A stretch of DNA of 41,165 nucleotides, taken from the NCBI GenBank assembly GCA_023954855.1, contig JAGSGY010000050.1, forward strand, positions 1 through 41,165, read 5' to 3'. This stretch comes from Pseudomonadota bacterium. GTDB lineage: Bacteria; Myxococcota_A; UBA796; GCA-2862545. Below, piece after piece: positions 22,362-41,165 of the stretch. Every line of letters starts with the position of its first letter. The first letter of the stretch is position 1. The position numbers were made by a program, and so were the translations under genes. The notes beneath the pieces were generated by a model. That model was given only the letters and a program-made list of their open reading frames with translations. It was not told where the DNA came from and did no database searches.

Positions 22362-22627
22362 GCGGGCTCTCTCCTCTCGACACTCCTCTGCGAGGAGCAT
22401 GCCAGCGGGTGGCTCCAACGAGAACACCGCTGAGCACCTGTTCATGCGTACCTGACGCCAGAGAGCCCCGGTGGAGGCCCGCATCGAATCCGCAGATCAT
22501 TGCATCAGGTCTGCAGAACGTAGACCGGCCGGGGACAACCGGCCACGGACCTACAAGCAAGAACGCTCGACCCCATCCGAATGCCTTGACAGCCAGCGCC
22601 GGCCGGATAGACGAGCCTCGCAATGCT

Positions 22628-23452: not shown

Positions 23453-23460
23453 GGTGATGC

Positions 23461-23931: not shown

Positions 23932-23932
23932 C

Positions 23933-24702
<770 letters not shown>

Positions 24703-24703
<1 letters not shown>

Positions 24704-27636
24704 TGCGACTCGCTCCCCTGCCCTTCTTGCTCGCCCTCTCCCTGCCCGCGTTTGGCCAGGACGAGCCGGCACCTGCCGAGACCCCCGAGGCACCAGCTGT
24801 CGAGGAAGACGCGCCCGACGGAACACCAGACGACGCACAAGAGGAGCCCGCGGCCGAGAGCCCGGCCGAGGATGAACCCATGACGCCGGAGGTCTCGAAA
24901 GAGCCCGAAGAGGTGGCTCCCACGGCAGAACCCGAGGTCCCGGCGAGCGACGAGGCCCCCTCCAGCGACGAAGTCCCGGCTGATGGAGCACCTCCAGTCG
25001 AGCCCTACACGGGCGACATCCCTATCGAAGAACTCCCGATTCTCGAGGGTCCCCAGATCGTCGAGTACGTCGAGGCCCCCTACCCGGCCGAGGCCGAGGC
25101 AGCCGGAGTCGAGGGAACCGTCCTATTGCTCATCGAGATCGATGAGTCCGGCGCCGTCACCTACGTCGAGGTCTTGCAGCCCATCGGCGATGGTTTCGAC
25201 GAGGCCGCAAAGGCCGCCGTCGAGCAGATGACCTTCACGCCCGCGATGACGGTCGCTGGCCCCGTCCCTGTCGCGTTCGAGTTCAACTACGGCTTCTCGC
25301 TCGAACCCGAGGTCCCGGAAGCCACCGAAGGCGAGGACGGTGAAGAGGTCGCACCGGAGCCTCCCCCACTGCCCGTCAACGTCGACGGCATGCTGCGCGA
25401 GATGGGCACCCGAAACCCCGTCGGCGGCGCTTTCGTGATGATCGAAGGCACCGAGATCGAGACCCAGACCGACGAAGAAGGCCGCTTCGAGCTTCGGGGC
25501 GTGCCGCTCGGTCGTCAGGTGCTTCGCACGGTGAAGCCCGGCTACCTGCCGATGGACACCAAGGTCGACGTCGAGGACGGCCTGGTCACCAGCGCCACCT
25601 ACTGGATTCGGGCAGAGGCCTACCGGGACAACGAGGCCGTCGCCGTCTACCACCGCGAACAGACCGAGGTGACCAAGCGCACCATCTCGATCGAAGAGAT
25701 TCGGCGCGTGCCCGGCACCTTCGGCGACCCGCTCAAGGTGGTACAGACCCTACCCGGCGCCGCACGCGCGCCGTTCGGCACCGGCCTGCTCGTCATTCGT
25801 GGCTCAAACCCCGAAGACTCTGGCGTCTACGTCGACGGCATCCGTATCCCGATCATCTACCACCTGACCGGCACGACCTCGGTCCTGTCGCCCGACCTCA
25901 TCGAGAGCGTCGACTACCTGCCCGGTGGCTACGGTGTGCAGTACGGACGCGGTATGGGCGGCGTCATCGACGTGAAGACCAAGTCCGAGTTCGAAGAGCA
26001 GGGCAAAATCGTCTGGGGCACCGACATCCTCGACTCGCAGCTCTACTACGAGGGGCAGATCGGCAAAGAGGGCAAGAAGCACGGCCTGGCCCTCGGCGCT
26101 CGCCGCTCGTACATCGATGCGTTCATCCCCCTGTTCACCGGCGGCACCGGCTTCACGATCAAGCCCCGCTACTGGGACTACCAGGTCAAGTGGGTCCCCC
26201 ATCTCGAAGGCAACCGCGAGGCCAACCTCTTCGTGTACGGCTTCAATGACCTTCTCGAAATCTCGACCCCCGATGACGTGGCTCAGGGCAGCGACCAGGA
26301 CACGCAGGGAGGGCTACGCACCGAGTACCTCTCCCATCGTGCGGTGTTCCAGTACAAGGACCAAATCACTGACCGGACGCGCATCGAGCTCACCCCCTCG
26401 ATCGGCTACGACGCCAGCTCGCTCGGGCTCGGCGATGCCTTCAACATCGACACCAACAACTGGCTCATCGAGCTTCGCGGCCAGGCGCCCATCGAGCTGA
26501 CCGAAGGACTCGAGCTCATTCCCGGCATCGACTTCATCGGCGGCCCCTGGGGCTTCGACTTCCGCGCTCCCTTCAGCTTCACCGACCTCGACGACCCGCT
26601 CGCCGAGCGCGAGCCCGTGGGCTTCGACGGCAAGGGAACGGCCTGGAGCACGGACCCGTTCGTGAAGCTCAACATCCGCCCGTTCGAGGACCGAGAGAAG
26701 CTCCTCATCACCCCCGGATTTCGCGCCAACACCGTCTACTACTCGTACCAGGGCAGCGTCACGGGCGAGGAGGGCAACGTCCCGTGGTCGGCGACCTACT
26801 TCGACCCGCGCATTCTCGCGCGCTTCGAGCTCAGTGAAAGCGTCACGCTCAAAGGCGCCACCGGCCTGTACAGCCAGCCACCCCAGCCCTTCGAGAGCAT
26901 TGGCGTGGGCACCGAGATCAACCTCGGCTACGAGCACGCCTGGGCAAGCTCTGTCGGTGTCGAACACCAGATCAGCCAGGCGCTGAAGTGGGACTTCGAG
27001 GTCTTCTACAAGCAGATGGATGACCTGGTCGTCTTCAACGAGCAGTGGGTTGGCTTCGGGGACGAGAACTTCATCAACGCCGGCGCCGGACGCGCGTACG
27101 GCGCCGAAGTCATCCTGCGCCACGAGCCGGTGAACAACCTGTTCGGCTGGATCAGCTACACCCTGTCCCGCTCGATCCGTCACGACGGACCCGAGCCCGA
27201 GTGGAAGCCGTTCAACAAAGAGAACCTCGACAACGGCTGGTACCCCTTCGACTACGACCAGACGCACATCTTCTCGGCCCAGGCCGGCTACGATCTGCCC
27301 CGCGACTTCGGCATCTCGGCACAGGTCCAGTACGTGACTGGCAACCCGGACTCCCCGTCAAACGCGGGTGTCTACGATGCGGACGGCGACTTCTACAACG
27401 GCTTCTCGACCGGAGAGCGCACCCGCCTGCCCCCGTTCTTCCAGAGCTCGCTCCGCTTCGACAAGCTGTGGACCTTCAAGCGCTGGCAGCTCGAGACCTA
27501 CGTCGACGCCCTCAACGTCGTACGCGGCGTGAACCCCGAGTTCACGATCTACAACTACGACTACAGCGAGTACGCCTACGTTCGCGGGCTACCGTTCATC
27601 CCCAACATCGGCCTGGAGGCGAAGTTCTTCCTATGA
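24703..27636 (+). CDS. TonB-dependent outer-membrane receptor with N-terminal TonB_C-like domain
   Basis: A 977-residue protein. Signal peptide 1-18 (PAFGQ). A disordered Glu/Pro/Ala/Asp-rich stretch runs to about 105. Residues about 121-199 form a TonB C-terminal-type domain (APYPAEAEAAGVEGTV, IDESGAVTYVEVL, then FTPAM). Residues about 226-293 are a carboxypeptidase-regulatory-like beta domain. The plug spans about 327-426, with VPGTFGDPLKVVQTLPG, VIRGSNPEDSGVYVDGI and YGRGMGGVIDV. The beta-barrel fills the rest and ends FIPNIGLEAKFFL. ATG 24703 overlaps the tonB stop and gives a proper signal peptide; the frame is open from 24592. The ligand is unknown. It is coupled by ATGA to a lipoprotein gene. 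Confidence 0.9.
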
Positions 27637-28535
27637 GACCTCTCGCCCTACCGCTCACCGTCGTCCTCAGCGCCACCCTCCTGTCAGGGTGTGTTCTCGG
27701 CGCCGACAAGTATCCAAGACCCCGCGACCTCGCGCCGTCCACCCTGGTGGACCGCACGCGCGTGATGGCGATTCAAGCCGAGCCCCCCGAAGCGGTGCCC
27801 GGCCAGGTCGTCACCTTCGACGTTCTGCTCGCCGATCCTGACGGCGTGATCGACTTGACCGTCTGGCTTGCCTGCGCCGAGGCCGACGGCTTCGGGTGCG
27901 ACACCGACCTCTCTGGCCTCGATGACGCCACACCCGAGGAGCTCGCGGCTGCGGGAGTCATCGGTCTGCAGCCATTCAATGACCCCGTGCTCCAAGTCCC
28001 GACCGACGTGCTCGACGCGCTCACCGAAGACGAGAAGCAAGAGGGCCTCGGCTACACGATCCAAGTGGCCGCCTTCCCCACCTCGGACGATACGGGCGCC
28101 GAGATTGACTTCAACGACGTCGAGGTCGCGTACAAGCGTCTGGTCGTCAGCGAGGCGAACACCCCGAACCACAACCCCACCCTGCGCGACTGGCGCGTGG
28201 ACGGCGCTCTCACGCCAGCAGGGAGTGTGGTCGTGGTCGATGCAGGCCAGAGCTACGAGCTCTCGGTTCTTCTCGCTGAGGGTTCCGTCGAGGACTACGA
28301 GTTCATCAACAGCTCGGGTGTGCTCGAGAATCGTACCGAGCAGCCCTACCTGGCCTGGTACGCCACCAGCGGCACAGTCGGAGACGAGTACACCGTCCCG
28401 CTAAATGGCTACGATGCCCCGCTCGAGTCGACCTGGACGGCACCCGATGAAGCTCAAGAAGGTCGCTGGTATGTCGTCGTGCGCGACCGACGCGGCGGAC
28501 AGTCCTGGCTCATCCAAGACTTCCGCGTCCAATAG
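27633..28535 (+). CDS. Lipoprotein partner of the TonB-dependent receptor
   Basis: A 300-residue lipoprotein (signal LSATLLSGC, Cys20). After the Cys comes a segment VDRTRVMAIQAEPPEAVPGQ followed by TFDVLLADPDG, a pattern I associate with many myxobacterial lipoproteins whose role is unknown. The rest is beta-rich and may be immunoglobulin-like. ATG 27633 overlaps the receptor's TGA (ATGA), so both are made together. The lipoprotein may sit on the receptor at the cell surface, as SusD does on SusC, though there is no sequence resemblance to SusD. It lies just before the outer-membrane barrel operon, the place held by lipoprotein gltK in Myxococcus; I cannot show they are related. Confidence 0.78.
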   Translation: MRPLALPLTVVLSATLLSGCVLGADKYPRPRDLAPSTLVDRTRVMAIQAEPPEAVPGQVVTFDVLLADPDGVIDLTVWLACAEADGFGCDTDLSGLDDATPEELAAAGVIGLQPFNDPVLQVPTDVLDALTEDEKQEGLGYTIQVAAFPTSDDTGAEIDFNDVEVAYKRLVVSEANTPNHNPTLRDWRVDGALTPAGSVVVVDAGQSYELSVLLAEGSVEDYEFINSSGVLENRTEQPYLAWYATSGTVGDEYTVPLNGYDAPLESTWTAPDEAQEGRWYVVVRDRRGGQSWLIQDFRVQ

Positions 28536-28896
28536 GAAAACCGACGCCGACCCGGAAGCGCGACACGCGACGCCACAAGAGAGGCGTGGAGGTGTCATGC
28601 ACCCACGACCACACCACCCGCAAAACCGGCCGTTCTCGGGGCGATCACGCGCCGACCAAAGGGCCTCACTGACAGCCGTAAATGGACGTCAGACCTTCTT
28701 GACGGATTCTAAACGTCGCCTCATACCACCCAGCCCCCGCGACAAACCCGGAAGTGAAGCCAGCCACCGCCAATGGTCGGTTGACACTAAAGGCGCGGAA
28801 AGTGTAGGAAGCGCAGTCGATGAGTCCGCTTTTCGCGCTGAACGGGTTGCTGCTCAACCAGTGCGACTCCCCGCAAACTTTCCGAGAGTTCGACGG
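28536..28896 (+). other. Non-coding region upstream of the outer-membrane barrel operon
   Basis: About 360 bp without a convincing gene. The frame of the downstream gene stays open across much of it, but no ribosome site or signal sequence appears before ATG 28897. The stretch 28660-28810 is less GC-rich than its surroundings and holds the promoter candidate at 28781-28810. The transcript leader would be about 80 nt. Confidence 0.5.
28781..28810 (+). promoter_or_regulatory. Promoter candidate for the barrel/TPR operon
   Basis: A perfect -35 hexamer TTGACA (28781-28786) is followed, after an 18-bp spacer, by TAGGAA (28805-28810), a modest -10. It lies in the only long non-coding gap before the five-gene operon 28897-37189. 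Confidence 0.45.
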
Positions 28897-29697
28897 ATGC
28901 CCTCCCTGAAGAATCTCGCTCCGGCCCTTCTGACCGTAGCGACGCTCGGCGCAGCCGCCCCAGCGATTGCCGCCGACCCCGGCCAAGAGGCCCTAGAGGA
29001 TTTCCGCACCCGCGAGGTCAAACGACCCGCGATTACAAACCGGTTTTTCCTAAAAGAAAGCCGGTTTGAGCTTGCCGTTCTCGGCGGGCTGGTGCCGAAC
29101 AACCCGTTCTCAAAGCGCTACGTCGGTGGAATCGACCTCGCGTACCACCTTTCCGAAGAGTTCGGGTTCGAGGGGCTGATTTCCTATTCGCCAGACCTCG
29201 GAACGAGCGACCTCAAGGGTCTGACTTCGGCGCTGGTCATCATCGCCCAGGGCAACTCGGGTGACTTCCAGCAGCCGCTGGACAAGGTCACGTTGTCGGC
29301 GGCCTTCGCTGCACGGTGGTCGCCGCTCTACGGCAAGATCAACCTTGTCGGTGAGACGGTCCTCAACTTCGACCTCTACTTCGTCGGCGGCATCGGCATG
29401 CTCGCGAAGCAGAACTACTTCGCGGTCTACGACCCGAACAGCATCGTCACCCTCGAGGATGGCGCACCGCCGAACGAGGTCGAGATTGCTCCCGTCCTCG
29501 GCACGGGCATGAACTTCTTCCTCACGCAGGGGATGGCGCTCAAGCTCGACGCTCGCATGTCGCTGTACATCGACAACAAGCCTCAGTACGACCCCACCGA
29601 GGTCATCACTGAGCAGCGTCTGTACAACAACTTCGTCATCTCCGCTGGTCTGGGCTTCTACTTCCCGAAGATGAAGACCCGCCTGTACAACTTCTAG
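28897..29697 (+). CDS. Outer-membrane beta-barrel protein (myxobacterial type, GltA/GltB-like)
   Basis: A 266-residue protein with signal peptide 1-25 (APAIAA). The body alternates hydrophobic strands with turns typical of a small barrel: FELAVLGGLVPNNPF, GIDLAYHLSEEFGFEG, AARWSPLYGKIN, FDLYFVGGIGM. It ends in Phe after LYN, the terminal aromatic residue read by the BAM machinery. The pattern N-x-F-x-x-R-Y-x-x-G, HxTExxGxE and SPxYGK is that of the outer-membrane barrel family common in Myxococcota, to which I believe GltA, GltB and CglE belong. Its neighbour at 29711 is a paralogue. Order barrel-barrel-TPR equals gltB-gltA-gltC of Myxococcus. It opens the operon. Confidence 0.8.
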   Translation: MPSLKNLAPALLTVATLGAAAPAIAADPGQEALEDFRTREVKRPAITNRFFLKESRFELAVLGGLVPNNPFSKRYVGGIDLAYHLSEEFGFEGLISYSPDLGTSDLKGLTSALVIIAQGNSGDFQQPLDKVTLSAAFAARWSPLYGKINLVGETVLNFDLYFVGGIGMLAKQNYFAVYDPNSIVTLEDGAPPNEVEIAPVLGTGMNFFLTQGMALKLDARMSLYIDNKPQYDPTEVITEQRLYNNFVISAGLGFYFPKMKTRLYNF

Positions 29698-29710
29698 CTG
29701 AGGTCGCATC

Positions 29711-30592
29711 ATGATCCGCAAAACGCTTGCTTCCGTTCTGCTGTCGGCCGCGCTCTTCGCCCCGACGCTTGCTGCTGCCCAGTCTGACGAAGGAGACATC
29801 GATGATGTCCTCGGCGACATCCTCGGCGAAGACCCACCGGTCGAAGAGAGCTCTGGCTCCGACATCGCCGAAGAGCGCCGCGCCGTCGAAGAGGGTGACC
29901 TCAACGACACCATCGGCGTGAAGTCCGAAGACATCGTTCTTCCCGAGGACCAGGGCCGTAAGCGCCGCATCATCAAGACCTTGCAGCGCAAGGACTTCCT
30001 GAAGATCGGCCGCTACGAAGTCGCCCCGGCGATTGGCGCCGTCACCAACGACGCCTTCATCAACCGCTACCTGCTGGGTGCGAGCTTCACCTACCACGCG
30101 ACCGAAATCTTCGGCGTCGAGCTCTCTGGCTCCTTCTCTCCCGACTTCGGTCAGGGCGACTGGAAGGCCATCACCGAGCAGCTCGTCACCAAGAACCGCG
30201 TGTCGCCTGACATCTCGAAGATTCAGTACTTCGCCGGTGCCAGCCTGGTGTTCTCGCCCATCTACGGCAAGATCGCGGTGACCAACCGCGGCATCGTCAG
30301 CTTCGACCTCTTCATGGCCGTCGGCGCCGGAGTCGTGAACACCAAAGAGGACCTCGAGGCCCTTCAGGCAGACACCGACCCCACGCACCCGGCATGGCTG
30401 ACCGCTTCACAGAACCATCCCACCACCAACCTCGGTGGCGGCGTTCGGGTTGTGTTCGCCGAAAACTTCGCAGCACGCCTAGATATTCGCACGCTCTCGT
30501 ACATCGAGACCGTCAGCGGCCACACGCTCGAGATGAAGAACAACTTCCTCGTGCTTGGCGGCGCATCCTTCTTCTTCCCCAACATGAAGTGA
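29711..30592 (+). CDS. Second outer-membrane beta-barrel protein (GltA/GltB-like)
   Basis: A 293-residue paralogue of the preceding gene product. Signal peptide 1-22 (PTLAAA-Q), then an acidic, probably disordered stretch of about 60 residues, then the barrel: YEVAPAIGAVTNDAF, INRYLLGASFTYHATEIFGVE, FSPIYGKIAV, FDLFMAVGAGV, closing in SFFFPNMK. Motif positions line up with its neighbour (N-x-F-I-N-R-Y, Y-H-x-x-E-x-F-G, SPIYGK). Unlike the neighbour it does not end in an aromatic residue, so its assembly signal is less clear. It lies 13 bp after the first barrel gene and 4 bp before the TPR gene. The two barrels may form a pair in the outer membrane, as proposed for GltA and GltB. Confidence 0.8.
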   Translation: MIRKTLASVLLSAALFAPTLAAAQSDEGDIDDVLGDILGEDPPVEESSGSDIAEERRAVEEGDLNDTIGVKSEDIVLPEDQGRKRRIIKTLQRKDFLKIGRYEVAPAIGAVTNDAFINRYLLGASFTYHATEIFGVELSGSFSPDFGQGDWKAITEQLVTKNRVSPDISKIQYFAGASLVFSPIYGKIAVTNRGIVSFDLFMAVGAGVVNTKEDLEALQADTDPTHPAWLTASQNHPTTNLGGGVRVVFAENFAARLDIRTLSYIETVSGHTLEMKNNFLVLGGASFFFPNMK

Positions 30593-30596
30593 TCTG

Positions 30597-32411
30597 ATGA
30601 AGCGCAACTTCAGCACCCTGGTCGCTACCCTCGCACTCTTCGCTTCCGCCGATGCCATGGCGCTCTCCTGTCAGGAGATCCTCGACATGGCGAAGGTGAG
30701 CGTTCCCTCCGAGATCATCGTTCAGACGATGGAAGGCTCCGGAAGCGCGTTCAACGACGACGACATCCGCTGTCTCGTCGATGGCGACGCCCCGGCCGAG
30801 ATCGTCGAGAAAGCTCGCGGCATGAGCACCGGTCCGGCGCCCACCCGTACCCCCATGACGCGGGAAGAGGATCCGAACGAGCCGGGTTTCGACACCACCG
30901 AGAGCCTGGGCGGCGACGTCTCCCTCTCGAGTAACGACGATCCCCTCGAGTCCGGAGGCCCTCAGATCATCGAGCAAGCCGTCGAAGCCTACCGGCAGAA
31001 GAAGTACCTCTCCGCGAGCAAGGCCCTCTTCGACCTTCTTGACGAAGATGCCTTCCCCGCCGAAGAAGCCAAGATCCAGTACTACCTGGCGAAGAGCCTC
31101 TTCGACCTCGAGATGTACCACGGCGCCCAGCACTACTTCATGGAAGTGGTTCGCAAGGGACCGCGCAACCCGTACTTCAAGTACGCGCTGCCCAAGCTCG
31201 TCGCCGTCTCCCAGCTCAACGGCAACGACGTCGAGCTGCTCCGCGTCGTTCACAAGATTCCGCCCGAGGCGTTCCCGCGCCAGGCCAAGAACCACCTCTA
31301 CTACCTCATGGGCCGCAAGCTCTACGAGAAGGGTGAGCTCTCGGCCGCGGCAGAGTACTTCCAGCAGATCTCGGCCAAGTCCGACCTCTACATGCGGGCC
31401 AAGTACTACGAAGGCGTCATCCACAACGAGCGCGGCAAGCTCAAGAGTGCCGTGAAGTCCTTCCGGGATGTCTACCAGGCAGACCCGTCCGAGGCCGGTG
31501 GCATGGACGCCCGCGAGATCGAGGACCTCAAGGACCTCTCGCTGATGAACATCGCTCGTATCTACTACGGACTCGAGCGCTTCGATCAGGCCGAGAACTA
31601 CTACGACCTCGTCGATCGCAACTCCGTGTACTGGCCCGAGAGCCTGTTCGAGCGCGGTTGGTCGAACTTCATGCGTTCCGACCTGAACCTCACGCTCGGC
31701 CTGCTGCTCACCGTCGACAGCCCGTACTTCAACGACGAAGAGTTCGTGCCCGAGGCCACCATCCTCCGCGGCCTGACCTTCTTCCAGCTCTGTGAGTACA
31801 CCGAGGTCGAGCGCATTCTCATCGGCTTCGAGGAGAGCCACCGGCCCATGCGGCAGGAGATCAAGGCCTTCCTCACTGAGTTCGAGGGAGAGTCCGCAGC
31901 GGACCTCACCGATCAGGCCTACGACGCCTACTTCGGACCCACAGCGCGCGATACTCGCCTCACAAAGGCGTTCTTCTCGAAGGTTCTTCGGAACCGCGAC
32001 CTCTCAGGTCTTGTCCGTCACATGGACATGATGGACGGAGAGATCGAGATGATCGACAGCGAAAAGGCCATCTGGCGTGATTCCGTGGGCGCAAAGCTCA
32101 AGGAAGTCATCGAGAAGGACCGTCAGCGCTACAAGAAGAAGGCCGGACAGGCCCTCCTTCGCGAGATGGCGAAGCAGTACACCTACCTGGGTGACCTGCT
32201 CTCGCAGTCCGAGATCATTCGATTCGAAGTCGTCGACGCCCAGCGCCTCGACTACGCCTACAAGGCCGCCGCGCCTGACGTAAGCGCGTTCGACCAGCAA
32301 GCTGTCGACTTCGCCGTGTCTAAGGAAATCATCTACTGGCCGTTCAACGGCGAGTTCTGGCGAGACGAGCTCGGCTACTACCGCTATGCCGAGCACGGTT
32401 CCTGCAAGTAG
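30597..32411 (+). CDS. Periplasmic TPR protein (GltC-like by position)
   Basis: A 604-residue exported protein with signal peptide 1-22 (ADAMA). A short N-terminal helical module follows (EILDMAKVSVPSEIIVQTM, then DDIRCLVDGDAPAEIVEKA), then an acidic linker and helical repeats of TPR type from about residue 120 (YRQKKYLSASKALFDLL, AKSLFDLEMYHGAQHYF, YLMGRKLYEKGELSAAAEYF, YYGLERFDQAENYY). It lies 4 bp after the barrel gene and probably binds the barrels on the periplasmic side, as GltC does in Myxococcus; that match rests on gene order and architecture only. The C-terminal 150 residues are helical without clear repeats. Confidence 0.8.
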   Translation: MKRNFSTLVATLALFASADAMALSCQEILDMAKVSVPSEIIVQTMEGSGSAFNDDDIRCLVDGDAPAEIVEKARGMSTGPAPTRTPMTREEDPNEPGFDTTESLGGDVSLSSNDDPLESGGPQIIEQAVEAYRQKKYLSASKALFDLLDEDAFPAEEAKIQYYLAKSLFDLEMYHGAQHYFMEVVRKGPRNPYFKYALPKLVAVSQLNGNDVELLRVVHKIPPEAFPRQAKNHLYYLMGRKLYEKGELSAAAEYFQQISAKSDLYMRAKYYEGVIHNERGKLKSAVKSFRDVYQADPSEAGGMDAREIEDLKDLSLMNIARIYYGLERFDQAENYYDLVDRNSVYWPESLFERGWSNFMRSDLNLTLGLLLTVDSPYFNDEEFVPEATILRGLTFFQLCEYTEVERILIGFEESHRPMRQEIKAFLTEFEGESAADLTDQAYDAYFGPTARDTRLTKAFFSKVLRNRDLSGLVRHMDMMDGEIEMIDSEKAIWRDSVGAKLKEVIEKDRQRYKKKAGQALLREMAKQYTYLGDLLSQSEIIRFEVVDAQRLDYAYKAAAPDVSAFDQQAVDFAVSKEIIYWPFNGEFWRDELGYYRYAEHGSCK

Positions 32412-32438
32412 AGCGGGTTCCCTTCACCGGGAGACCCA

Positions 32439-32450
32439 GGAGAATTCTCC
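32439..32450 (+). promoter_or_regulatory. Ribosome-binding site inside a perfect palindrome
   Basis: GGAGAATTCTCC sits directly before ATG 32451. GGAG is the Shine-Dalgarno sequence, 8 nt from the start, and CTCC touching the ATG is its exact complement, so GGAG-AATT-CTCC can fold into a 4-bp hairpin that would hide the site. Confidence 0.5.
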
Positions 32451-35400
32451 ATGCGTAGAGTCAGCACCTATTCCGGCCTCATCGGCCTCGTTCTCGCGCT
32501 GTCCGGCAGCGTCGCCCTCGAGGGCGTTGCCCTCGCTCAGGACGACGATGACGACAGCGGGCGCCGCGTGCTCAAGGCACGTGATGTCGACGAGCAAGCG
32601 GCGATCTCCGAAGAGTACGCTCGCCTGGCCCAGCAGAAGCGCCTCGAGTCCATCCAGTTCCTGAAGGAGCTCCTCTCCCGAGGAGAGGCCGAAGGCGACC
32701 GGAAGGCTGAGATGATGCTTCGTCTTTCCGACCTCTACTTCGAGCAGGGCCGCGCGCTCTACCTCCAAGAGATGGAGGCTTACGATGTCGAGTTCGACCG
32801 GTGCTTCAACACCGAGGGCTGCGACACCGAGAGCCTGCGGGCCGACAACAGCGGATCCGCCGACTGGCAGCAGAAGTCGATCCGTCTGTACCAGCAGATT
32901 CTTCGCAGCTACCCCCGGTACGCTCGCGCAGACGAGGCCATCTACTACCTGGCCTCGGCCCAGTCCGATACCGGCGACCGCGACAGCGCCGTCGAGAACT
33001 ACACGAAGCTCGTGAAGCTCTACCCGGACAGCAAGTACGTCCCCGACAGCCACGTGCAGATCGGCGAGTACTACTTCGACAAGAACAACGCCTACAAGGC
33101 GCTGCTCGCGTACAAGAAGGCCACCGCCTACCGCGACTCCGAGAAGTACAGCTTCGCGCTCTACAAGCTGGGCTGGTGCTACTACAACGTCGGCGAGTAC
33201 GACAAGGGCATCGCGACGATGAAGTCCGTCGTCTCCTACTCGATGAGTCAGGAATCGGAGGGTGCCGGCAACCGCCTGCAGCTTCAGGAAGAGGCCCTCA
33301 AGGACCTCGTCCGCTTCTTCGCCGACGCCGGCGAGCTTGACCAGGCGTACGAGTACTTCAGCAAGCTCGGCAAGAACGACCTCATCCGCAAGATGCTCAA
33401 GCGTCTCGCGACGATGTACTTCGAGCAGGGCAAGTTCGAGCAGGCGGTTCAGACCTACCGCCGTCTCATCGCCGAAGACCCGCAGAACCCGCGCAACGTC
33501 GACTACCAGAACGAGATCGTCCAGGCGTACCTCAAAATGGGCGACCGCGAGCAGCAGTTCTCCGAGATCGACCGGATGCTCAAGACCTACGGCAAGGACT
33601 CGGCCTGGGCGCGTGCAAACGCCTCCAACCCCGACGCCATCGCCGAAGCCGAAGAGTCCATCGAGAAGAACATTCGCAGCATGGCCTACTTCCACCACGA
33701 GCGCGCACGCAAGCTCTCGGGTTCGGAGTCCAAGGCCAGCTACGACTTGGCGTACCGCGCGTACAACATGTACCTGGACAACTTCCCAGAGTCGCAGCAC
33801 GCCTACGAAGTTCGCTACTCCTACGCCGAGCTCCTCTACAAGCTCAAGAAGTACGACGCGGCCTTCGACCAGTACATGGCCGTCGTCAAGATGGACCCGC
33901 AGGGCAAGCACAGTAAGTTCTGTGCCGAGTCCGCCATCTTCTCGGCTGACGAGATGGTGAAGAAGGAAGGCGGAAACCAGAGCATCACGGCCAAGGCCGG
34001 CGAGGCTCGCGACCCGATTCCCCTCACCGACTGGGAACAGCGGATGGTCGATGCGTGCAACCAGTTTGCGACGCTCTACCCAGAAGAGAAGAAGGTCCGC
34101 AACATCATCTACAAGTCGGCGTACCTGCTTTACAACAAGTACCAGTTCGACAAGGCCGCCGAGCAGTTCAACCTCGTCATCGCGATGGACCCCGGTGCTC
34201 GCGAGGCCGAGCAGGCTGCCAACCTCATCCTCGACTCGTTCGTCATCAACGAGAACTGGCAGTCGCTGCGCGACAACGCCAAGGTCTACTACGAGCAGGA
34301 GGGCCTCGGCTCTCGCAAGTTCAAGGGCGAGGTGTACGACATCTACATGAACGCCTCGGCGAAGCTCATCGAAGTCGACTTCGCCGCGAACAGCGACCAC
34401 GGCAAGACCGCCGATGCGTACAAGACCTTCCTCGTCGAGTTCCCGACCTACCCCGAGAAGGCGCGTGTCCTGAACAACATGGCCATCTACTACTCCACGG
34501 CTGACCGCCGCGGAGACGCCATGGAAGTTCGCAAGACGCTGGTCGACGGCGCCGATTACGGCGACAAGACCAAGTACTACTACGACCAGATGTCGGCGCT
34601 TGGCTACGACTACGAGACCATCGCCGCCTTCGACGAGGCCGCCGGCTACTACGAGCGCCTGTTCGGCGAGTGGGAAGACGAGCGGAAGAAGCGGGTCAAG
34701 GAAGAAGCTGACGAGGCTGCCCTCGCGAAGCTCGACACCTCGGCCGCCGACGCCATCTACTCCGCCGCCGTGTTCCGCAACGCGCTGGGCCAGTGGGAAG
34801 CGTCGATTGGCGACTACCAGAAGTTCATGGCCGCGTTCCCCGCGGACGAACGCCTGAACGACACGCAGCTCACCATTGGCCGCATCTACGAGGACCACGA
34901 GCAGTGGGCCGACGCGGCTGGCGTGTTCTACAACTTCTACAAAACGCCCGACGACAAGCCCGTCGAGATGGTCTACTTCGCTCGCCTGCACCACGCAGAC
35001 GCCCTGTTCGCGCAGAACAAGGACCGCGATGGACTGAAGCTCTACACCGAGACCGTCGCGATGTACAAGAAGTACATCGAGGGCGGTGGCCAGGTGGGTG
35101 CGCACACCGAGTTCGTCGCCCAGATGATGTTCAAGCTCGCTGAGCCGACCATGGAGTCGTACCTCGCCAGCGAGATCAAGCCGGCGTCGACCCGCTCGCG
35201 CAAGCTTGAGGACAAGGGCCTCGGCGACGCGCTGAAGGCGAAGGCGAAGGGCCTTGCCGAGGTCGAGCAGACCTACAAGGAAATCATCGACACCGGTGCC
35301 GGTGAGTGGGGCCTCGCCGCACTCGTCAAGCTCGGACAGGCCTACGAGAACATGGGCGAATCGCTCAAGAACTCGCACGTTCCGTCCTACCTGACTCCGG

Positions 35401-35654
35401 ACCAGGTCGAGCTCTACACCATGGCCATCGAAGACAAGGTGTACCCGCAGGTCGAGAAGTCGGTCGCGGCATACCAGGCATCGCTTGGCAAGTCCTACGA
35501 GCTCACGCTCTACAACGAAAACACTGCATTCGCGACCCGCCGTCTTGGCGAGCTGCGCCCGAACGACTTCCCGGGACTCCGGGAAGAGCTCGTCGAGGTG
35601 CGCTTGACCAGTTCCGCTGGCGGCCGTGACTACAGCTTCGAGACCAGCCTCTAG
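32451..35654 (+). CDS. Large exported TPR protein (GltD-like by position)
   Basis: A 1067-residue protein with signal peptide 1-29 (GVALA-Q) followed by five Asp residues. Nearly the whole length is helical, with many TPR-like units: AIYYLASAQSDTGDRDSAVENYTKLV, YKLGWCYYNVGEYDKGI, MYFEQGKFEQAVQTYRRLI, YAELLYKLKKYDAAFDQYMAV, YLLYNKYQFDKAAEQFNLVI, and others up to about residue 860. Tyr and Lys are very frequent. Such arrays bind partners; no enzyme motif is seen. In order it takes the place before the TPR lipoprotein as GltD precedes GltE in Myxococcus, but I cannot verify orthology by eye. Its ribosome site lies in a small palindrome. Confidence 0.82.
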   Translation: MRRVSTYSGLIGLVLALSGSVALEGVALAQDDDDDSGRRVLKARDVDEQAAISEEYARLAQQKRLESIQFLKELLSRGEAEGDRKAEMMLRLSDLYFEQGRALYLQEMEAYDVEFDRCFNTEGCDTESLRADNSGSADWQQKSIRLYQQILRSYPRYARADEAIYYLASAQSDTGDRDSAVENYTKLVKLYPDSKYVPDSHVQIGEYYFDKNNAYKALLAYKKATAYRDSEKYSFALYKLGWCYYNVGEYDKGIATMKSVVSYSMSQESEGAGNRLQLQEEALKDLVRFFADAGELDQAYEYFSKLGKNDLIRKMLKRLATMYFEQGKFEQAVQTYRRLIAEDPQNPRNVDYQNEIVQAYLKMGDREQQFSEIDRMLKTYGKDSAWARANASNPDAIAEAEESIEKNIRSMAYFHHERARKLSGSESKASYDLAYRAYNMYLDNFPESQHAYEVRYSYAELLYKLKKYDAAFDQYMAVVKMDPQGKHSKFCAESAIFSADEMVKKEGGNQSITAKAGEARDPIPLTDWEQRMVDACNQFATLYPEEKKVRNIIYKSAYLLYNKYQFDKAAEQFNLVIAMDPGAREAEQAANLILDSFVINENWQSLRDNAKVYYEQEGLGSRKFKGEVYDIYMNASAKLIEVDFAANSDHGKTADAYKTFLVEFPTYPEKARVLNNMAIYYSTADRRGDAMEVRKTLVDGADYGDKTKYYYDQMSALGYDYETIAAFDEAAGYYERLFGEWEDERKKRVKEEADEAALAKLDTSAADAIYSAAVFRNALGQWEASIGDYQKFMAAFPADERLNDTQLTIGRIYEDHEQWADAAGVFYNFYKTPDDKPVEMVYFARLHHADALFAQNKDRDGLKLYTETVAMYKKYIEGGGQVGAHTEFVAQMMFKLAEPTMESYLASEIKPASTRSRKLEDKGLGDALKAKAKGLAEVEQTYKEIIDTGAGEWGLAALVKLGQAYENMGESLKNSHVPSYLTPDQVELYTMAIEDKVYPQVEKSVAAYQASLGKSYELTLYNENTAFATRRLGELRPNDFPGLREELVEVRLTSSAGGRDYSFETSL

Positions 35655-35662
35655 AGGTCATC

Positions 35663-37189
35663 ATGCGTATTCTTACTCGACTCGCACTGGCCGTCGCCCT
35701 CATGGGCACGGTGGGTTCCCTCCAGGGCTGCGGTGACAAGACCAAGGTGGATGCTCTCTCCGAAGAGGATCTCTCCAAGCCTGGTCCCCTGTTCCGCAAC
35801 GGCGTTCAGCTGCTGCAGAGCCCCGACAAGAACGGAGCCATCGACTACACCACCGCCTACGAGCGCTTCGCTCGGGCCGCGGAGCTCGGCAACAACCCCA
35901 AGGCGCACTTCAACGCCGGCTGGGTTGCCGAGGTTCTCGGAAACGGTGACGCGGCGATGCTTCACTACAAGGCCGCCTACGACGCGGACGCCGCCCATGA
36001 GGGTGCGATGTTCTCGTACGCTCGGGTTCTGGCCAGCCAGGGCATGGGCGCCGAGGCCGAGGCGCTGTACCGCAGCTACCTCGAGAACGACCCGGACAAC
36101 CTGGCCGTGCGCAACGACCTCGTGAAGTCGCTCGCGACCTCGGGTTCGTATGACGGCGCACAGGCCGAGGCCCAGCAGATCCTGCTCCTCGACCCCAAGA
36201 ACGCCCAGGTCTACCGGAACCTCGCCGCGATGTACCACGCCCAAGGCAACTACGGCATGGCGCAGCTCTGCAGCGAGAAGGCCCTGGCCCTCAACGAGGG
36301 CGACTTCGGCACCTACAACAACCTCGGGGTGACCTACCTCGAGCAGGGTGACGAGGCGAAGGCCATCGAGCAGTTCAAGACCGCGGTCAAGCTCGACCCC
36401 GATGGCTTCGAGGCCAACACCAACCTCGGCTTCATCGCGCTGAACTCGGGTGACTACACCTTGGCACTCGCCAGCTTCGAGCGCGCCGTCAAGGCCGAGC
36501 CCGGAAGCGTCGAAGCCAAGCTTGGATACGCCGTTGCGCTTCGCGGAACCGGCGAGTTCAACAAGTCCGACAGCGTCTACAACGAGGTCATGAAGATCGA
36601 CCCGAGCAGCCGCGTCGCGTACTACAACGCGGCGACCCTGCACTACGTCTACACCAAGGACTTCAACAAGGCACTCAAGTACCTTGAAGCCTTCGTCGAC
36701 GCCGCAGCGGGAACCATCGGTCCGAACGACCCCGTCTTCGAGCGCATGGACGAAGTCCGCGCCGCCAAGGTTGCGGAAGACGAGCGCAAGGCCGAGGAAG
36801 ATCGCCTGAAGAAGGAAGCCGAGGAGCGCGAGAAGCGCAACAAGGCTCTGCTCGTCGAGCTCGGAACCCAGATCGACGGCTTCGAAGCCAAGATCGCGGC
36901 CAACGCAGACTGCCTCGGACCTGAGGTTGTCGAAGAGGTTGGAATGGTCATCGAGCAAGGCCGCATGGTGGTCGAGTCCGGTGATGCCTCGATGGCGCCT
37001 GACATGAAGTCGATGTTCGACGACTACTACGTGCCCGTCGTCGAGGAAGGCATCGCTGCCTGCGGCGCCGGCGGCGCCGAAGAGTTGCCCGCCGAGGGCG
37101 AGGGCGGCGAGCTGCCCGAGGAAGGTGCCGAGGGCGCTGAAGGTGCCGAGGGCGCTGAAGGTGCCGAGGGTGAGCCCGCTCCCGAGTAG
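35663..37189 (+). CDS. TPR-repeat lipoprotein (GltE/AglT-like)
   Basis: A 508-residue lipoprotein (signal TVGSLQGC, Cys23). Residues about 60-365 carry eight or so canonical TPRs, for example KAHFNAGWVAEVLGNGDAAM, VYRNLAAMYHAQGNYGMAQ, TYNNLGVTYLEQGDEAKAI and ANTNLGFIALNSGDYTLAL. Then come a highly charged coiled-coil-like helix (about 370-395, KAEEDRLKKEAEEREKRNK), a small Cys-containing domain, and an acidic Gly/Ala/Glu tail made by a DNA tandem repeat. Architecture and context agree with the gliding-machine TPR lipoprotein GltE (AglT). It closes the five-gene operon 8 bp after the large TPR gene and is followed by a strong terminator. Confidence 0.85.
   Translation: MRILTRLALAVALMGTVGSLQGCGDKTKVDALSEEDLSKPGPLFRNGVQLLQSPDKNGAIDYTTAYERFARAAELGNNPKAHFNAGWVAEVLGNGDAAMLHYKAAYDADAAHEGAMFSYARVLASQGMGAEAEALYRSYLENDPDNLAVRNDLVKSLATSGSYDGAQAEAQQILLLDPKNAQVYRNLAAMYHAQGNYGMAQLCSEKALALNEGDFGTYNNLGVTYLEQGDEAKAIEQFKTAVKLDPDGFEANTNLGFIALNSGDYTLALASFERAVKAEPGSVEAKLGYAVALRGTGEFNKSDSVYNEVMKIDPSSRVAYYNAATLHYVYTKDFNKALKYLEAFVDAAAGTIGPNDPVFERMDEVRAAKVAEDERKAEEDRLKKEAEEREKRNKALLVELGTQIDGFEAKIAANADCLGPEVVEEVGMVIEQGRMVVESGDASMAPDMKSMFDDYYVPVVEEGIAACGAGGAEELPAEGEGGELPEEGAEGAEGAEGAEGAEGEPAPE
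37121..37170 (+). repeat. 18-bp tandem repeat coding the acidic tail of the TPR lipoprotein
   Basis: The unit GAAGGTGCCGAGGGCGCT occurs twice exactly and a third time in part (2.8 copies), coding Glu-Gly-Ala-Glu-Gly-Ala. Identical DNA copies suggest recent duplication. Confidence 0.85.
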
Positions 37190-37209
37190 GCTCTCCATCG
37201 CAACGCTCA

Positions 37210-37241
37210 CGGCGTCCCTTCGGGGGCGCCGTTTGTGTTTT
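37210..37241 (+). terminator. Rho-independent terminator of the barrel/TPR operon
   Basis: CGGCGTCCC-TTCG-GGGGCGCCG forms a 9-bp stem with one T-G pair and a TTCG loop, followed by TTTGTGTTTT. It lies 20 bp after the TPR lipoprotein stop codon and separates this operon from the TonB-like gene at 37418. Confidence 0.92.
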
Positions 37242-37321
37242 GGGCCCCTGACTTCGCGTTGACCTCCACCTTGCGGACCGTTGACGACCCGATTCCGAAA
37301 CCCACTGTCTGAGCTTACTGA

Positions 37322-37350
37322 CGGAGGGTTCGAGATGTATCGGCCCTCCG
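37322..37350 (+). promoter_or_regulatory. Inverted repeat in the leader of the first TonB-like gene
   Basis: CGGAGGG and CCCTCCG are a perfect 7-bp inverted repeat, 15 nt apart, about 70 bp before the start codon at 37418. It may be a leader hairpin or a protein site. A TTGACG at 37281-37286 lies upstream, but I see no convincing -10. Confidence 0.3.
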
Positions 37351-37417
37351 CGACGCGGCGCTCTATGTCCGGCTCAACCCGAGCTGGCGGGGGGTCGTGC
37401 GCGCCCAGGGAGGCACC

Positions 37418-38833
37418 ATGCAGACGCCCGATTTCGTCCAACGCACCGACACGGGAAAGAGTGGCCTAGCGCTTCGCGCAAACGCACCGCGGGTCCTCGA
37501 GGTCCACCTGATCTGGGAAGATCTCGTCATCGACACCCGTCACTACGCCCCTGGCTCCGAGGCCATCACTATCGGCGAGGCCATGGGATGGAAGTGGCGC
37601 TGTCTCGGCATCGACATGGGCTGGATGCGCCCATCATTTCGGCACCTCCCCACCATCGCCTTGCCGCTATGGGCGGAGGTAGAGCACACCGCTCGCTGCG
37701 ACTTCTTCACGCCGTCTGAGTTCCTCGATGGCGATGAGCGGGTCGAGATCGTCCGCTGGGAGGACGACCACGCCGTTCTCGATGTACCCGAGGGCTGGAC
37801 CGTCGAAACTGGCGGACACGGGCGCGCTTGGTCCTTCGTCGACACCCGCTCCACACCGGTTCCCGCTGACGACGTGATTCGCCTGCGTCGTGGGGACCTG
37901 AGTCTGATCCTCGGACGTGTGCGCGCCCCGCTCGGCATGATCGCGCGGCCAGACCTCGGCCCCGACCGGCGTTTCGCAGGCGTGTTCTCAGCCGTCGCCG
38001 CCGCGGGCCTGCTGTTCGGCATCGCGATCGCCTCGCAGCCGCCCACACCCACAAACGAGGTGGTCGAGATCCCCGAGCAGGTCATGAGCCTCGTGTACCA
38101 GGCACCCGAGCCACCGCCGCCGGTCGAGAAGCCACCCGAGCCGGCGAAGCCCAAGAGCAAAGGCGACGAAGGCAGCGTCGGAGAGCCCGATGGCGACCAG
38201 CCCGAGGCCGCCGCGCGAAAGAGTGAGAACGAGTCGGTCGTGCAGAGGAGCGGACTGATCGACGCCTTCGCAAGCAGCGATTTCGGCGACATGTTCACGG
38301 ACGGCGGGCTCTCCACGGGCCTCGCCGACTCGATCAGTGGCCTCGCCGGTCCAAAGGGTACTCGGATCGGGAACGGCGGCATGGGTCGTATCGGCAACGG
38401 CCCCGGCGGTGGAGGGACTGCCGAAGGCACCTACATCGGCGGGACCTGTACCGGCGACCTCGAGAAGTGCGGCACAGGCACTCTCCCCGAGATGGAGAAG
38501 CCGGTCTCTGCGGTTCCGCAGGTGCGTGATGCCCTGATCATCGGCGGCCTCGATCGAGCCCAGATCGACGACGTCATCAAGCGGCACATGGCATCGATTC
38601 GCTACTGCTACCAGCGGCAGCTCCAGCAGGACCCCGGTCTCGGCGGAAAGCTGGTGGTCAAGTTCACCATCGCTCGAGATGGCTCGGTGTCTCAGGCCGG
38701 CGCGAAGATGAGCACGATCCAAGGATCCGCGGTGGACGACTGCGTGGTCGGCCGTTTTCTCAAGATGCAGTTCCCGAAGCCAAAAGGCGGAATCGTGGTC
38801 GTTTCGTACCCGTTTCTGTTCGCTCCCGGATGA
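37418..38833 (+). CDS. TonB-like trans-envelope protein with AgmX/PglI C-terminal domain, no FHA
   Basis: A 471-residue single-pass protein. Residues about 25-170 form a cytoplasmic domain (RVLEVHLIWEDLVIDTRHY, ITIGEAMGWKWRCLGIDMGW). The membrane helix is 186-206. Then come NEVVEIPEQ, a Pro/Glu/Lys-rich periplasmic spacer, a Gly-rich stretch (about 315-345) with two Cys in CTGDLEKCG, and from about 372 the AgmX/PglI C-terminal domain (LDRAQIDDVIKRHMASIRYCYQR, then GGKLVVKFTIARDGSV), which is TonB_C-like. The layout equals GltG/GltJ of the gliding machine, but the FHA or zinc-ribbon head is absent. ATG 37418 has GGGAGG upstream; a GTG at 37397 is less likely. It shares its cytoplasmic domain and helix surroundings with the protein at 39391. 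Confidence 0.85.
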   Translation: MQTPDFVQRTDTGKSGLALRANAPRVLEVHLIWEDLVIDTRHYAPGSEAITIGEAMGWKWRCLGIDMGWMRPSFRHLPTIALPLWAEVEHTARCDFFTPSEFLDGDERVEIVRWEDDHAVLDVPEGWTVETGGHGRAWSFVDTRSTPVPADDVIRLRRGDLSLILGRVRAPLGMIARPDLGPDRRFAGVFSAVAAAGLLFGIAIASQPPTPTNEVVEIPEQVMSLVYQAPEPPPPVEKPPEPAKPKSKGDEGSVGEPDGDQPEAAARKSENESVVQRSGLIDAFASSDFGDMFTDGGLSTGLADSISGLAGPKGTRIGNGGMGRIGNGPGGGGTAEGTYIGGTCTGDLEKCGTGTLPEMEKPVSAVPQVRDALIIGGLDRAQIDDVIKRHMASIRYCYQRQLQQDPGLGGKLVVKFTIARDGSVSQAGAKMSTIQGSAVDDCVVGRFLKMQFPKPKGGIVVVSYPFLFAPG

Positions 38834-39058
38834 GGTGACGCCCGCAAATGCACTGTTCACCCCCATGATCAGTGCTTTGCGTCTCCTTGACGAATGGTCG
38901 GGAACTTCCCCGGCCCAACCCCTGTCAGACCTGCTTGACCCGAAAATGACCCCCCTCGCCTTGTGCCGACGGGCCTGACACCTAAGAATGCCGCTGCATT
39001 CGTACGTGCAGGACCTCACACGCCGGCAATCTGGTGAGGCTCCCTTCTGGAGGAATCC

Positions 39059-39313
39059 ATGACTCGAACTCTCTCCCTTCTGATCGCATTTGGCGCCTTC
39101 GCCTCCCCTGCCCTCGCGCAGGATGAAGAAGCTGCCGTCAAGTACAAGGAGCGGACTGAGATTGACTTCGAGTCCGTCGACGTCACCGGCGAGCTCGTGA
39201 AGCCCGAGGGCTCACTGCTCCTCTCGCGTAAGCAGGCGAACTTCAACCCGTTGATCCGCCTGCGCGAGCACTGGAACGACGAGATGAAGCAGTCCATCGA
39301 CGAGGTCAAGTAG
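39059..39313 (+). CDS. Small exported protein between the two TonB-like genes
   Basis: An 84-residue protein with signal peptide 1-20 (ASPALA-Q), leaving a mature chain of about 64 residues: a charged start (EEAAVKYKERTEIDFES), VDVTGELVKPEGSLLLSRK, then NFNPLIRLREHWNDEMKQS and the end IDEVK. No Cys, no second helix. The ending reminds me of the short gliding-motility protein CglF of Myxococcus, but this is recollection, not alignment. GGAGGA lies 4 nt before the ATG. Its placement between two AgmX-type proteins suggests a periplasmic accessory of the same machine. A weak hairpin separates it from the FHA gene 77 bp downstream. Confidence 0.75.
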   Translation: MTRTLSLLIAFGAFASPALAQDEEAAVKYKERTEIDFESVDVTGELVKPEGSLLLSRKQANFNPLIRLREHWNDEMKQSIDEVK

Positions 39314-39337
39314 GGCCGCAAGGTCCCTGACTCCTCC

Positions 39338-39368
39338 TCGGCCCCTCCGGCCGAACACCCCACTTTTT
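39338..39368 (+). terminator. Weak hairpin between the small protein and the FHA gene (attenuator?)
   Basis: TCGGCC-CCTCC-GGCCGA forms a perfect 6-bp stem and is followed, 9 nt later, by TTTTT. The distance from stem to T-run is larger than in a normal terminator, so partial termination at best. Confidence 0.3.
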
Positions 39369-39390
39369 ACTCTCGACTCTCGGAGTTCTC

Positions 39391-41165
39391 ATGGCCAACG
39401 AGAACCAGGTGCTGACCTTTGAGGTCTACCGCGGTGAATCGCTCATTAAGACTGCGGAATTTTCGCAGCCCAGCATCACCATCGGCAAGGGCGAGGCCGC
39501 TGCGCTTCGTATCGAAGGCGACGGCGTTGCCGACCTCCATGCCGTACTCAACGTGTCCGCCGATGGCGGTCTGACGATCGCCGACCTCGGCGCTGACGGC
39601 GGAACCAAGCTGAACGGCGAGACCGTCACGAACAGCTCGGTCACCTCCGGCGACTCTCTCCAGATTGGTGAGCTTCGCGTGGTTGTCGCCATCCACGAGC
39701 CCGAGGCCTTTGACGAGGAAGAGGCCACCATGGTGGCCATGGACCCCGCCGAGCTCGCTCGCGAGATCGAGGCCGCTTCGTTTGAAGACGACGGCGCCGC
39801 TCTCGACGAAGAGGACGAGGTCGCTCCCCTCGCTGCAGGCGGCGTCATCGCCGACATCGCAGAAGAAGACGACGACACCGATGCCGATCCCGACAGCATC
39901 AACGACGTCGAAGACGTGATGGCCTGGATCATGCGCTCTGGCACGGCGCAGTCCGGTCTTGGCGTCGACAAGAAGCGCGCCAAGGTCCTCGAGGTCAACC
40001 AGATCTGGGAAGACCTCCTGCTCGACACCAAGCACTTCCTCCCTGAGGGCAAGCCGGTCACGGTGGGCTCCTCTGTGGGCTGGCGCTGGAATGTGCTCGG
40101 CGTGAACATGGGCTGGGTGCCCACGGGCGCACACCAGGTCCTCAAGTACACGCCCCCGTTCTGGTCCGAGGTCGTCTCCGAGTGGAAGAACGACTTCTAC
40201 GCTCCCGACGAGCACCTGCCGGGCAGCAACGACCACGACCTGTTCAAGTGGGATGGCGAGAAGTACGTCGCTGAAGTCGCCTCGAGCTGGGATGGCTTTG
40301 TCGACGTTGGCGACACCCGCCACTCCTTTGACGAGGCCGTTGCCGCTGGCAAGGCCAAGAAGTCGGGCGCTGGCTACGAAATCGCCATGGATGAGGACAC
40401 GCGCCTCATCGTCGACGTCGACGGCGTCGTATTCTTCGCGCACAACGTGCACCGTGGCCGCCGCATCATCGCGCGTCTCACCGAAGACGTGGATTACCCC
40501 TTCCTGGCCATCTTCTCGGTCATCGCCTTCATCGGCCTGGTCTTCGGTGTCTTCCTGTACACCGGCGAGTCGCGCCCCTCGAACGAGATGGTCGAGATTC
40601 CGGACCGCTTCGTCGAGCTTCTGATTCAGAAGCCCGAAGTTCAGGAAGAGAAGAAGAAGCCGTCCGGCAACCCCGACGCGGGCGAAGGCGCCAAGGCCAA
40701 GCGCGAAGAGGGCAAGACCGGCAAGAAAGACGCGAAGATGGAGAAGGCCAAGGGCAACAAGGTCGAAATCCAGAAGCGCGAGCTCGACAAGCAGATCGCA
40801 GAGAACGCCGGTCTTCTCGGCGCGCTCTCTGACGATGGCGCTCTCGAAGGCGTCTTCGGCTCCTCCTCACTCGACTCCAGCCTGACGGGCGGCATTGGTG
40901 GCCTCATCGGCGCCAAGGGCACCCAGATTGGTTCTGGTGGCCTCGGCTCGCGTGGCGGCGGCCTCGGTGGCGGCGGTACGGCTGAAGGCCTCGGCGGCCT
41001 CGGCACCAAGGGCATCGGCTCTGGCGCCAGCGGCTACGGCTCCGGCGGCGGCAACTTCGGCGCCAAGGGCGAAGGCGGCATCGGCCGCGTCGGTGGCGAC
41101 CCGATCATCCTCGGTGCCCTCGACCGGTCCCTCATCGACGAAGTCATCAAGCGGCACATGAACGC
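39391..41165 (+). CDS. FHA-domain TonB-like trans-envelope protein, GltG/GltJ type (partial)
   Basis: The frame runs open from ATG 39391 (GGAG 5 nt upstream) past the right edge; 591 complete codons are visible. Residues about 8-100 form an FHA fold (SITIGKGEAAALRIEGD, then LHAVL, ADLGADGGTKLNGE). An acidic linker (about 104-170) follows, then a cytoplasmic domain (about 190-365) paralogous to that of the protein at 37418, a membrane helix (about 369-390), NEMVEIPDR, a Lys/Glu-rich spacer, a Gly-rich stretch (about 500-570), and the start of the AgmX/PglI C-terminal domain (LDRSLIDEVIKRHM), where the window stops. FHA plus TonB-like tail is the plan of GltG (PglI). The gliding link is inference. 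Confidence 0.88.
   Translation, partial: MANENQVLTFEVYRGESLIKTAEFSQPSITIGKGEAAALRIEGDGVADLHAVLNVSADGGLTIADLGADGGTKLNGETVTNSSVTSGDSLQIGELRVVVAIHEPEAFDEEEATMVAMDPAELAREIEAASFEDDGAALDEEDEVAPLAAGGVIADIAEEDDDTDADPDSINDVEDVMAWIMRSGTAQSGLGVDKKRAKVLEVNQIWEDLLLDTKHFLPEGKPVTVGSSVGWRWNVLGVNMGWVPTGAHQVLKYTPPFWSEVVSEWKNDFYAPDEHLPGSNDHDLFKWDGEKYVAEVASSWDGFVDVGDTRHSFDEAVAAGKAKKSGAGYEIAMDEDTRLIVDVDGVVFFAHNVHRGRRIIARLTEDVDYPFLAIFSVIAFIGLVFGVFLYTGESRPSNEMVEIPDRFVELLIQKPEVQEEKKKPSGNPDAGEGAKAKREEGKTGKKDAKMEKAKGNKVEIQKRELDKQIAENAGLLGALSDDGALEGVFGSSSLDSSLTGGIGGLIGAKGTQIGSGGLGSRGGGLGGGGTAEGLGGLGTKGIGSGASGYGSGGGNFGAKGEGGIGRVGGDPIILGALDRSLIDEVIKRHMN

Follow-up and report, generated by a model that had tools for sequence, protein, structure and literature searches.

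The window, which is the whole of the 41,165-nucleotide stretch analysed here, is the entire contig C32 of a genome labelled G000 (6.1 Mb, 178 contigs, 97% complete). From position 28897 onwards it carries a cluster of genes homologous to those of the Nfs and Glt machines of Myxococcus xanthus. With moderate confidence, we take the product of this locus to be a surface-transport transducer of the Nfs/Glt type, whose motor is probably AglRQS. The parts that characterise such transducers in the broad sense are found: homologues of C, D, E and G together, two outer-membrane barrels as well as F and H, and an AglRQS triplet in the genome. As expected for Nfs, A to H make up one cluster, which runs over the window and a second contig of the same genome (C18), and is unbroken in a genome of the same genus (G001). 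New are the class-wide link of A–H to a TonB-dependent receptor and a lipoprotein, encoded upstream, and an extra GltG paralogue, of which a limited literature check yielded no description.

Two tasks of the Nfs/Glt family, a surface transporter driven by protons, are documented, both in M. xanthus, gliding and assembly of the spore coat. That a near-invariant gene order couples the transducer with a TonB receptor and a lipoprotein throughout a class is a concrete lead to the cargo. The absence of the neighbouring ExbB from two relatives, together with a single AglRQS triplet placed beside another transducer, makes the question of the motor directly testable.

Protein families were assigned with Pfam and NCBIfam models, scores being read against the cut-offs of the models; the NCBIfam models named after Glt proteins are equivalogs. 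Gene order in the class was counted over 52 loci of relatives of the window among named public genomes (uncultured Deltaproteobacteria or Myxococcota, the metagenome-assembled genome UBA796 among them), with the loci long enough to judge as denominators, while 28 such loci served for comparison outside the class. The relatives covered by genome searches belong to six families of one order. The phylum sample comprises 373 Myxococcota genomes, without recognisable Myxococcia.

The eight parts of the cluster

An earlier note on this DNA had described, between 28897 and 41165, a one-strand array of two paralogous barrels, three tetratricopeptide repeat (TPR) proteins, two proteins with AgmX/PglI tails and a small exported protein. 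All these genes are present there, on the + strand. Barrel A (28897–29697, 266 amino acids) and barrel B (29711–30592, 293 amino acids) are outer-membrane proteins resembling GltA/GltB (NfsA/NfsB). They score 100 and 103.7 bits with TIGR04565 (OMP_myx_plus; cut-off 60) and are 28% identical to each other (E 4e-26), as suits the paralogues they had been taken for. The GltC/NfsC homologue (30597–32411, 604 amino acids), a periplasmic TPR protein with a signal peptide, matches NF033756 with an E-value of 2.5e-75 and 254 bits against a cut-off of 450; a GltC relative occurs in 38/38 relatives and in 322 of the 373 Myxococcota genomes. The next gene (32451–35654) encodes an exported TPR protein of 1067 amino acids which no curated Glt model matches. 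The name GltD/NfsD is given to it on account of its position, size, TPR content and signal peptide, and of a profile match beside GltC: the class profile picks the gene adjoining GltC across the phylum, including the one beside the GltC that exceeds the curated cut-off in genome G069. The GltE/NfsE homologue (35663–37189, 508 amino acids) is a TPR lipoprotein with lipobox LQGC, matching NF033758 (E 3.6e-37, 128 bits, cut-off 225). TPR matches in C, D and E have E-values from 1e-12 to 5e-27.

Between E and F lies an extra gene, X (37418–38833, 471 amino acids), coding for a GltG-like protein without a canonical FHA domain, with an AgmX/PglI tail (NF033768, 101 bits, cut-off 40). X and the GltG of the window share 29% identity over 312 columns spanning the cytoplasmic domain and the membrane helix (E 6e-42), and their tails are 65% identical. 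A close orthologue of X is found only within the same genus. Second GltG-like genes also occur in other genera, after G or in the interval between E and F, but are less closely related. That X could be GltJ was considered and rejected, as the GltJ model matches its tail only. Neither of the two tailed proteins, which the earlier note had set beside GltG and GltJ, is GltJ: both are of the GltG type, one a GltG with FHA domain, the other its FHA-less paralogue. Models of the cytoplasmic domain of GltG and X are of middling confidence, with weak FHA-like matches, none of them significant, and searches of PDB sequences with X, the GltG domain and the upstream lipoprotein (27633–28535) returned no match. 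The AgmX/PglI tail has 17 matches in G000, 13 of them over the cut-off, so that a tail of the force-transducer kind is in wide use there.

The small exported protein (39059–39313, 84 amino acids) is the homologue of GltF/CglF (NfsF), with an E-value of 1.4e-16 and 60 bits against a cut-off of 90 for NF033764. Since CglF is GltF (PMC4488436), the gltF gene that was to be sought to the right already lies inside the window. The GltG (NfsG) homologue (39391–41165) has an FHA domain (E 1.6e-7) and matches NF033760 over 8–590 (E 8.5e-67, 226 bits, cut-off 650). The end of the contig truncates this gene just within its AgmX/PglI domain. Its tail is found at G000:C18:2-481 (181 bits, E 2.9e-53), and there scores 112.6 bits for the AgmX/PglI domain, over the cut-off of 40. 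The start of C18 overlaps the end of the window by 240 bp at 90% identity, a value low enough for strain variation or mis-binning to be possible; the unbroken array of G001, which runs through H on one contig, supports the join. Next on C18 comes a protein that scores 96 bits with the CglE model, whose cut-off of 70 is the only one among the NCBIfam Glt-named models to be reached. We take CglE to be GltH, the second gene expected to the right. With the tail of GltG and GltH on C18, all eight Nfs/Glt parts from A to H are therefore contiguous. The Glt-type assignment of the earlier note holds: A to C and E to H are recognised by curated models, with matches that are highly significant for C, E, F and G even though these score under the equivalog cut-offs, and D by homology and gene order.

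After GltH, C18 continues with a long OmpA/TraB-like protein, then ribosomal protein L3 (by sequence). The former (G000:C18 1677-5465, L027) has 1262 amino acids, Asp-rich repeats and an OmpA-type C-terminal domain; its best match is TraB, of outer-membrane exchange, and it also matches CglD. It could act with the surface machine. In the class loci, which end too soon after H to be informative on this point, the gene has no match.

Gene order and the upstream TonB block

Synteny in related genomes, which the earlier note had proposed to examine, is near-invariant from A to H: A and B are at the cluster in 44/44 class loci, D in 43/43, E in 40/40, F in 39/39, G in 31/34 and H in 28/34. In four loci (L093, L095, L097 and L113, from G017, G010, G005 and G018, respectively) GltG is absent and F stands directly before H. 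Loss of the gene in genera g5, g9 and g10 was considered and rejected, GltG being relocated elsewhere in each genome. Outside the class C and D are contiguous in 28/28 loci, mostly followed by E, F and G; A and B are not recognised beside C in most of these loci, barrel B of G069 being an exception. In a tree computed from C, D, E and G in concatenation, the class holds together with full support; the tree, unrooted and without M. xanthus, does not place the cluster nearer Glt or Nfs. G069 has two clusters (L161 and L162, on G069:C25 and C74), which branch next to each other, between the class and the other members of the phylum. Alone in its class, this genome holds, in one of these two Glt-type clusters, the sole GltC of the phylum sample above the curated cut-off. 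This Myxococcota locus also turns up in public metagenome bins whose titles read Klebsiella pneumoniae or Bifidobacterium breve (L097, L106, L113, L117, L119); the titles are evidently wrong.

The earlier note had seen in the contiguity of the two halves of the machine a possible ancestral or alternative form. The halves are indeed contiguous, but this is not new, because M. xanthus itself has nfsA-H in one cluster (PMC3858216), both halves, G1 and G2, are grouped in Anaeromyxobacter (PMC3169522), and C and D are adjacent in all 28 loci outside the class. Nor does the unit begin at 28897: the locus conserved in the class starts at 22838, with a block of five genes on the same strand. At its head stands an ExbB/TolQ-type proton channel protein (22838–23452, 204 amino acids; 122 bits with PF01618, and TolQ/ExbB models), followed by an ExbD/TolR-type protein (23461–23931, 156 amino acids; TolR/ExbD models, E 1e-24 to 1e-14) and a TonB (23933–24703, 256 amino acids; TonB model, E 2e-16) made of a membrane helix with an SxxxH motif, a Pro/Glu-rich spacer and a TonB-like C-terminal domain. 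SxxxH is kept in nearly all aligned TonB relatives of the class. The TonB-dependent outer-membrane receptor that comes next (24703–27636; Pfam TonB_C, E 5e-14, and Plug, E 6.5e-11) has its TonB_C domain fused ahead of the plug. It thus bears a domain that normally belongs to the partner TonB; the fusion is kept across the class, and the MxcH model matches the same part.

The last gene of the block (27633–28535, 300 amino acids, lipobox LSGC) encodes a lipoprotein whose family, undescribed and without a Pfam entry, is specific to the class; it has predicted immunoglobulin (Ig)-like beta-sandwich domains and invariant motifs, among them DRRGG near the C-terminus. Its AlphaFold2 model is of high mean confidence (pLDDT 90.5). 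Foldseek gives many weak matches to Ig or fibronectin type III-like domains, with TM-scores below 0.4; matches as generic as these give no pointer to a function. Just upstream of the block, on the – strand (18819–22484), lies an unusually long penicillin-binding protein 1A-like gene (1221 amino acids).

The receptor is present in 31/34 class loci, the lipoprotein in 35/39 and ExbB-ExbD-TonB in 18/24. Beyond the order, receptor and lipoprotein recur in another family of the class (L181) and the full block in a more distant pair (L133 and L134), while none of the 28 loci from other classes has receptor and lipoprotein upstream of C. The block from 22838 to 28535 represents an ordinary system of TonB-dependent uptake that accompanies the A–H cluster throughout the class and perhaps handles the same surface material. 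Spacing is tight from ExbB to the lipoprotein (8, 1, –1 and –4 bp), after which 361 bp (28536–28896) separate the lipoprotein from barrel A. From A to E the intervals are 13, 4, 39 and 8 bp, then 228 bp to X, 225 bp from X to F and 77 bp from F to G. A terminator-like hairpin after gltE (37209–37232, + strand; 10 pairs, 8 of them GC, with a T-rich tail) ranks first in strength among 20 such sites and probably ends an A–E transcript. Together, spacing and hairpin suggest separate transcripts for the TonB block, A–E, X and F-G-H.

Motor and use of the machine

The transducer, single-copy and vertically inherited, would assemble into one complex. A and B would be its outer-membrane barrels, C and D periplasmic TPR connectors, E a TPR lipoprotein, F a small exported protein and H an outer-membrane protein, while GltG would act as a TonB-like coupler in the inner membrane, reaching with its FHA domain into the cytoplasm and with its AgmX/PglI domain into the periplasm. 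On the M. xanthus model, a TolQR-type channel driven by protons would move the coupler; this, contacting the barrel complex, would shift the barrels and the surface material bound to them along the cell surface. A model of contacts between inner and outer membrane driven by the proton-motive force has been put forward (PMC5349195). Surface transport is adopted here because in both known uses of the family an envelope complex driven by protons moves surface material, and it remains the better of the two uses named in the earlier note.

In M. xanthus AglRQS, composed of one TolQ and two TolR proteins, drives both Glt and Nfs (PMC3858216), and GltG binds AglR (PMC3169522). G000 has eight MotA/ExbB matches and one AglRQS triplet. 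The aglQ and aglS genes that might have followed to the right of the window thus exist in the genome, but on contig C128, where the triplet is accompanied by GltD, GltE and GltG-like genes of its own, with a GltC-like gene nearby (G000:C128:50231-61033, L030). This region is a compact second Glt core cluster, comprising GltC-like, D, E, AglR, AglQ, AglS and GltG-like genes. Core-type triplets are also present in G002, G003, G013 and G028, while G022 has a divergent triplet plus one further. The motor would most likely be the C128 AglRQS, shared between the two clusters as its counterpart serves Glt and Nfs in M. xanthus.

Several observations weigh against this choice. The membrane helix of GltG has no SxxxH motor-binding motif in the class of the window, and the GltG-like protein that stands beside AglRQS on C128 is also devoid of it. 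A second AglR homologue of M. xanthus, MXAN_3003, bound neither GltG nor NfsG (PMC3858216, Wartel et al.); the AglR of G000 is of the type whose genes adjoin GltE-like ones and may correspond to this second type of motor, so that its sharing with the window cluster is not assured. Across the phylum SxxxH is present in the GltG helix of many Myxococcota families (L143, L144, L163, L164, L178 and others), and in none examined from the class of the window.

The neighbouring ExbB-ExbD-TonB set might itself be a dedicated motor replacing AglRQS, the SxxxH-bearing TonB pushing the barrels or the receptor, with GltG as a passive scaffold. Linkage at 18 of 24 class loci, tight packing inside the block and the presence of SxxxH in TonB helices, as opposed to the GltG helices of the class, are in keeping with this idea. 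Yet the window ExbB, followed by one ExbD and a TonB, groups in two trees with ordinary energisers of TonB, apart from the AglR clade; identity with AglRQS is rejected by these trees and by the gene count (one TolR, not two). The two blocks are separated by the 361-bp gap, and TonB boxes of the kind proposed for M. xanthus GltA/B were sought in A and B, where the N-termini vary and no conserved box is found. G002 (97% complete) and G003 (98% complete) keep the receptor, the lipoprotein and A–H, without an ExbB of the window clade anywhere. The TonB block is therefore not an obligate motor of A–H, and AglRQS is the better candidate; that the neighbouring set drives the machine appears unlikely.

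If, with AglRQS as its motor, the machine were a Glt focal-adhesion apparatus that moves the cell, this would fit core parts that are the same as M. xanthus GltA-H and a motor present in the genome. Gliding, the other use named in the earlier note, is possible yet unsupported, and we consider it improbable. The search for gliding-specific parts covered GltJ, with GltI, GltK/CglC and CglB left out: no GltJ over the 450-bit cut-off is found in five class genomes, where matches are mostly to the tail, and in G000 itself the matches are confined to the tail domain or are short and partial. C, E, F and G miss the Glt equivalog cut-offs (254/450, 128/225, 60/90 and, for the part of GltG inside the window, 226/650 bits), which among the Glt-named models CglE alone reaches. 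Furthermore, M. xanthus employs the same core in sporulation, and bacteria that do not glide possess it too (PMC3858216, PMC3169522). A surface-coat machine of the Nfs type, which would wrap resting cells or spores in an exported polymer, would agree with A–H lying in one cluster, as nfsA-H do, but no sporulation is known in the class of the window and the odds seem rather poor. The four genomes in which GltG has moved while the other parts stay together indicate that the outer parts form a stable unit, a point in favour of a static envelope bridge that would anchor surface polymer or lipoproteins without motor-driven movement. GltG, however, is kept elsewhere in each of the four, and the class genomes surveyed have an AglRQS triplet; we consider such a bridge very unlikely. 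Finally, it is a speculative view, to which we give little credence, that receptor, Ig-like lipoprotein and Nfs/Glt transducer are one machine, in which the receptor would capture or import surface material and the Glt complex would move it along the envelope, TonB and AglRQS providing two separate force inputs on a single outer-membrane assembly.

Comparison with known systems

By sequence and tree, the block from 22838 to 27636 is of the same kind as ExbB-ExbD-TonB systems with TonB-dependent receptors; it differs from them in the TonB_C domain of its receptor, also present in the MxcH model, and in being tied to an Nfs/Glt cluster across the class. The group-B core complex, made of GltC, D, E and G with AglR, Q and S (Luciano et al., 2011), has its exact counterpart in the C128 cluster, whereas the window cluster has A, B, F and H in addition and lacks an AglRQS triplet. 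With GltA-K and AglRQS of M. xanthus (PMC3169522, PMC4488436) the window shares homologues of A to H, and AglRQS is encoded elsewhere in the genome; by contrast, its set forms one cluster instead of two, has no GltJ over the cut-off, and scores under the Glt equivalog cut-offs except for CglE. NfsA-H of M. xanthus, a paralogue of Glt (PMC3858216, PMC2875238), offers the same eight parts in one cluster, with the same division into barrels, TPR connectors, lipoprotein, F, G and H. To this plan the window adds an extra GltG-like gene between E and F, and a block of TonB, receptor and lipoprotein genes at its head.

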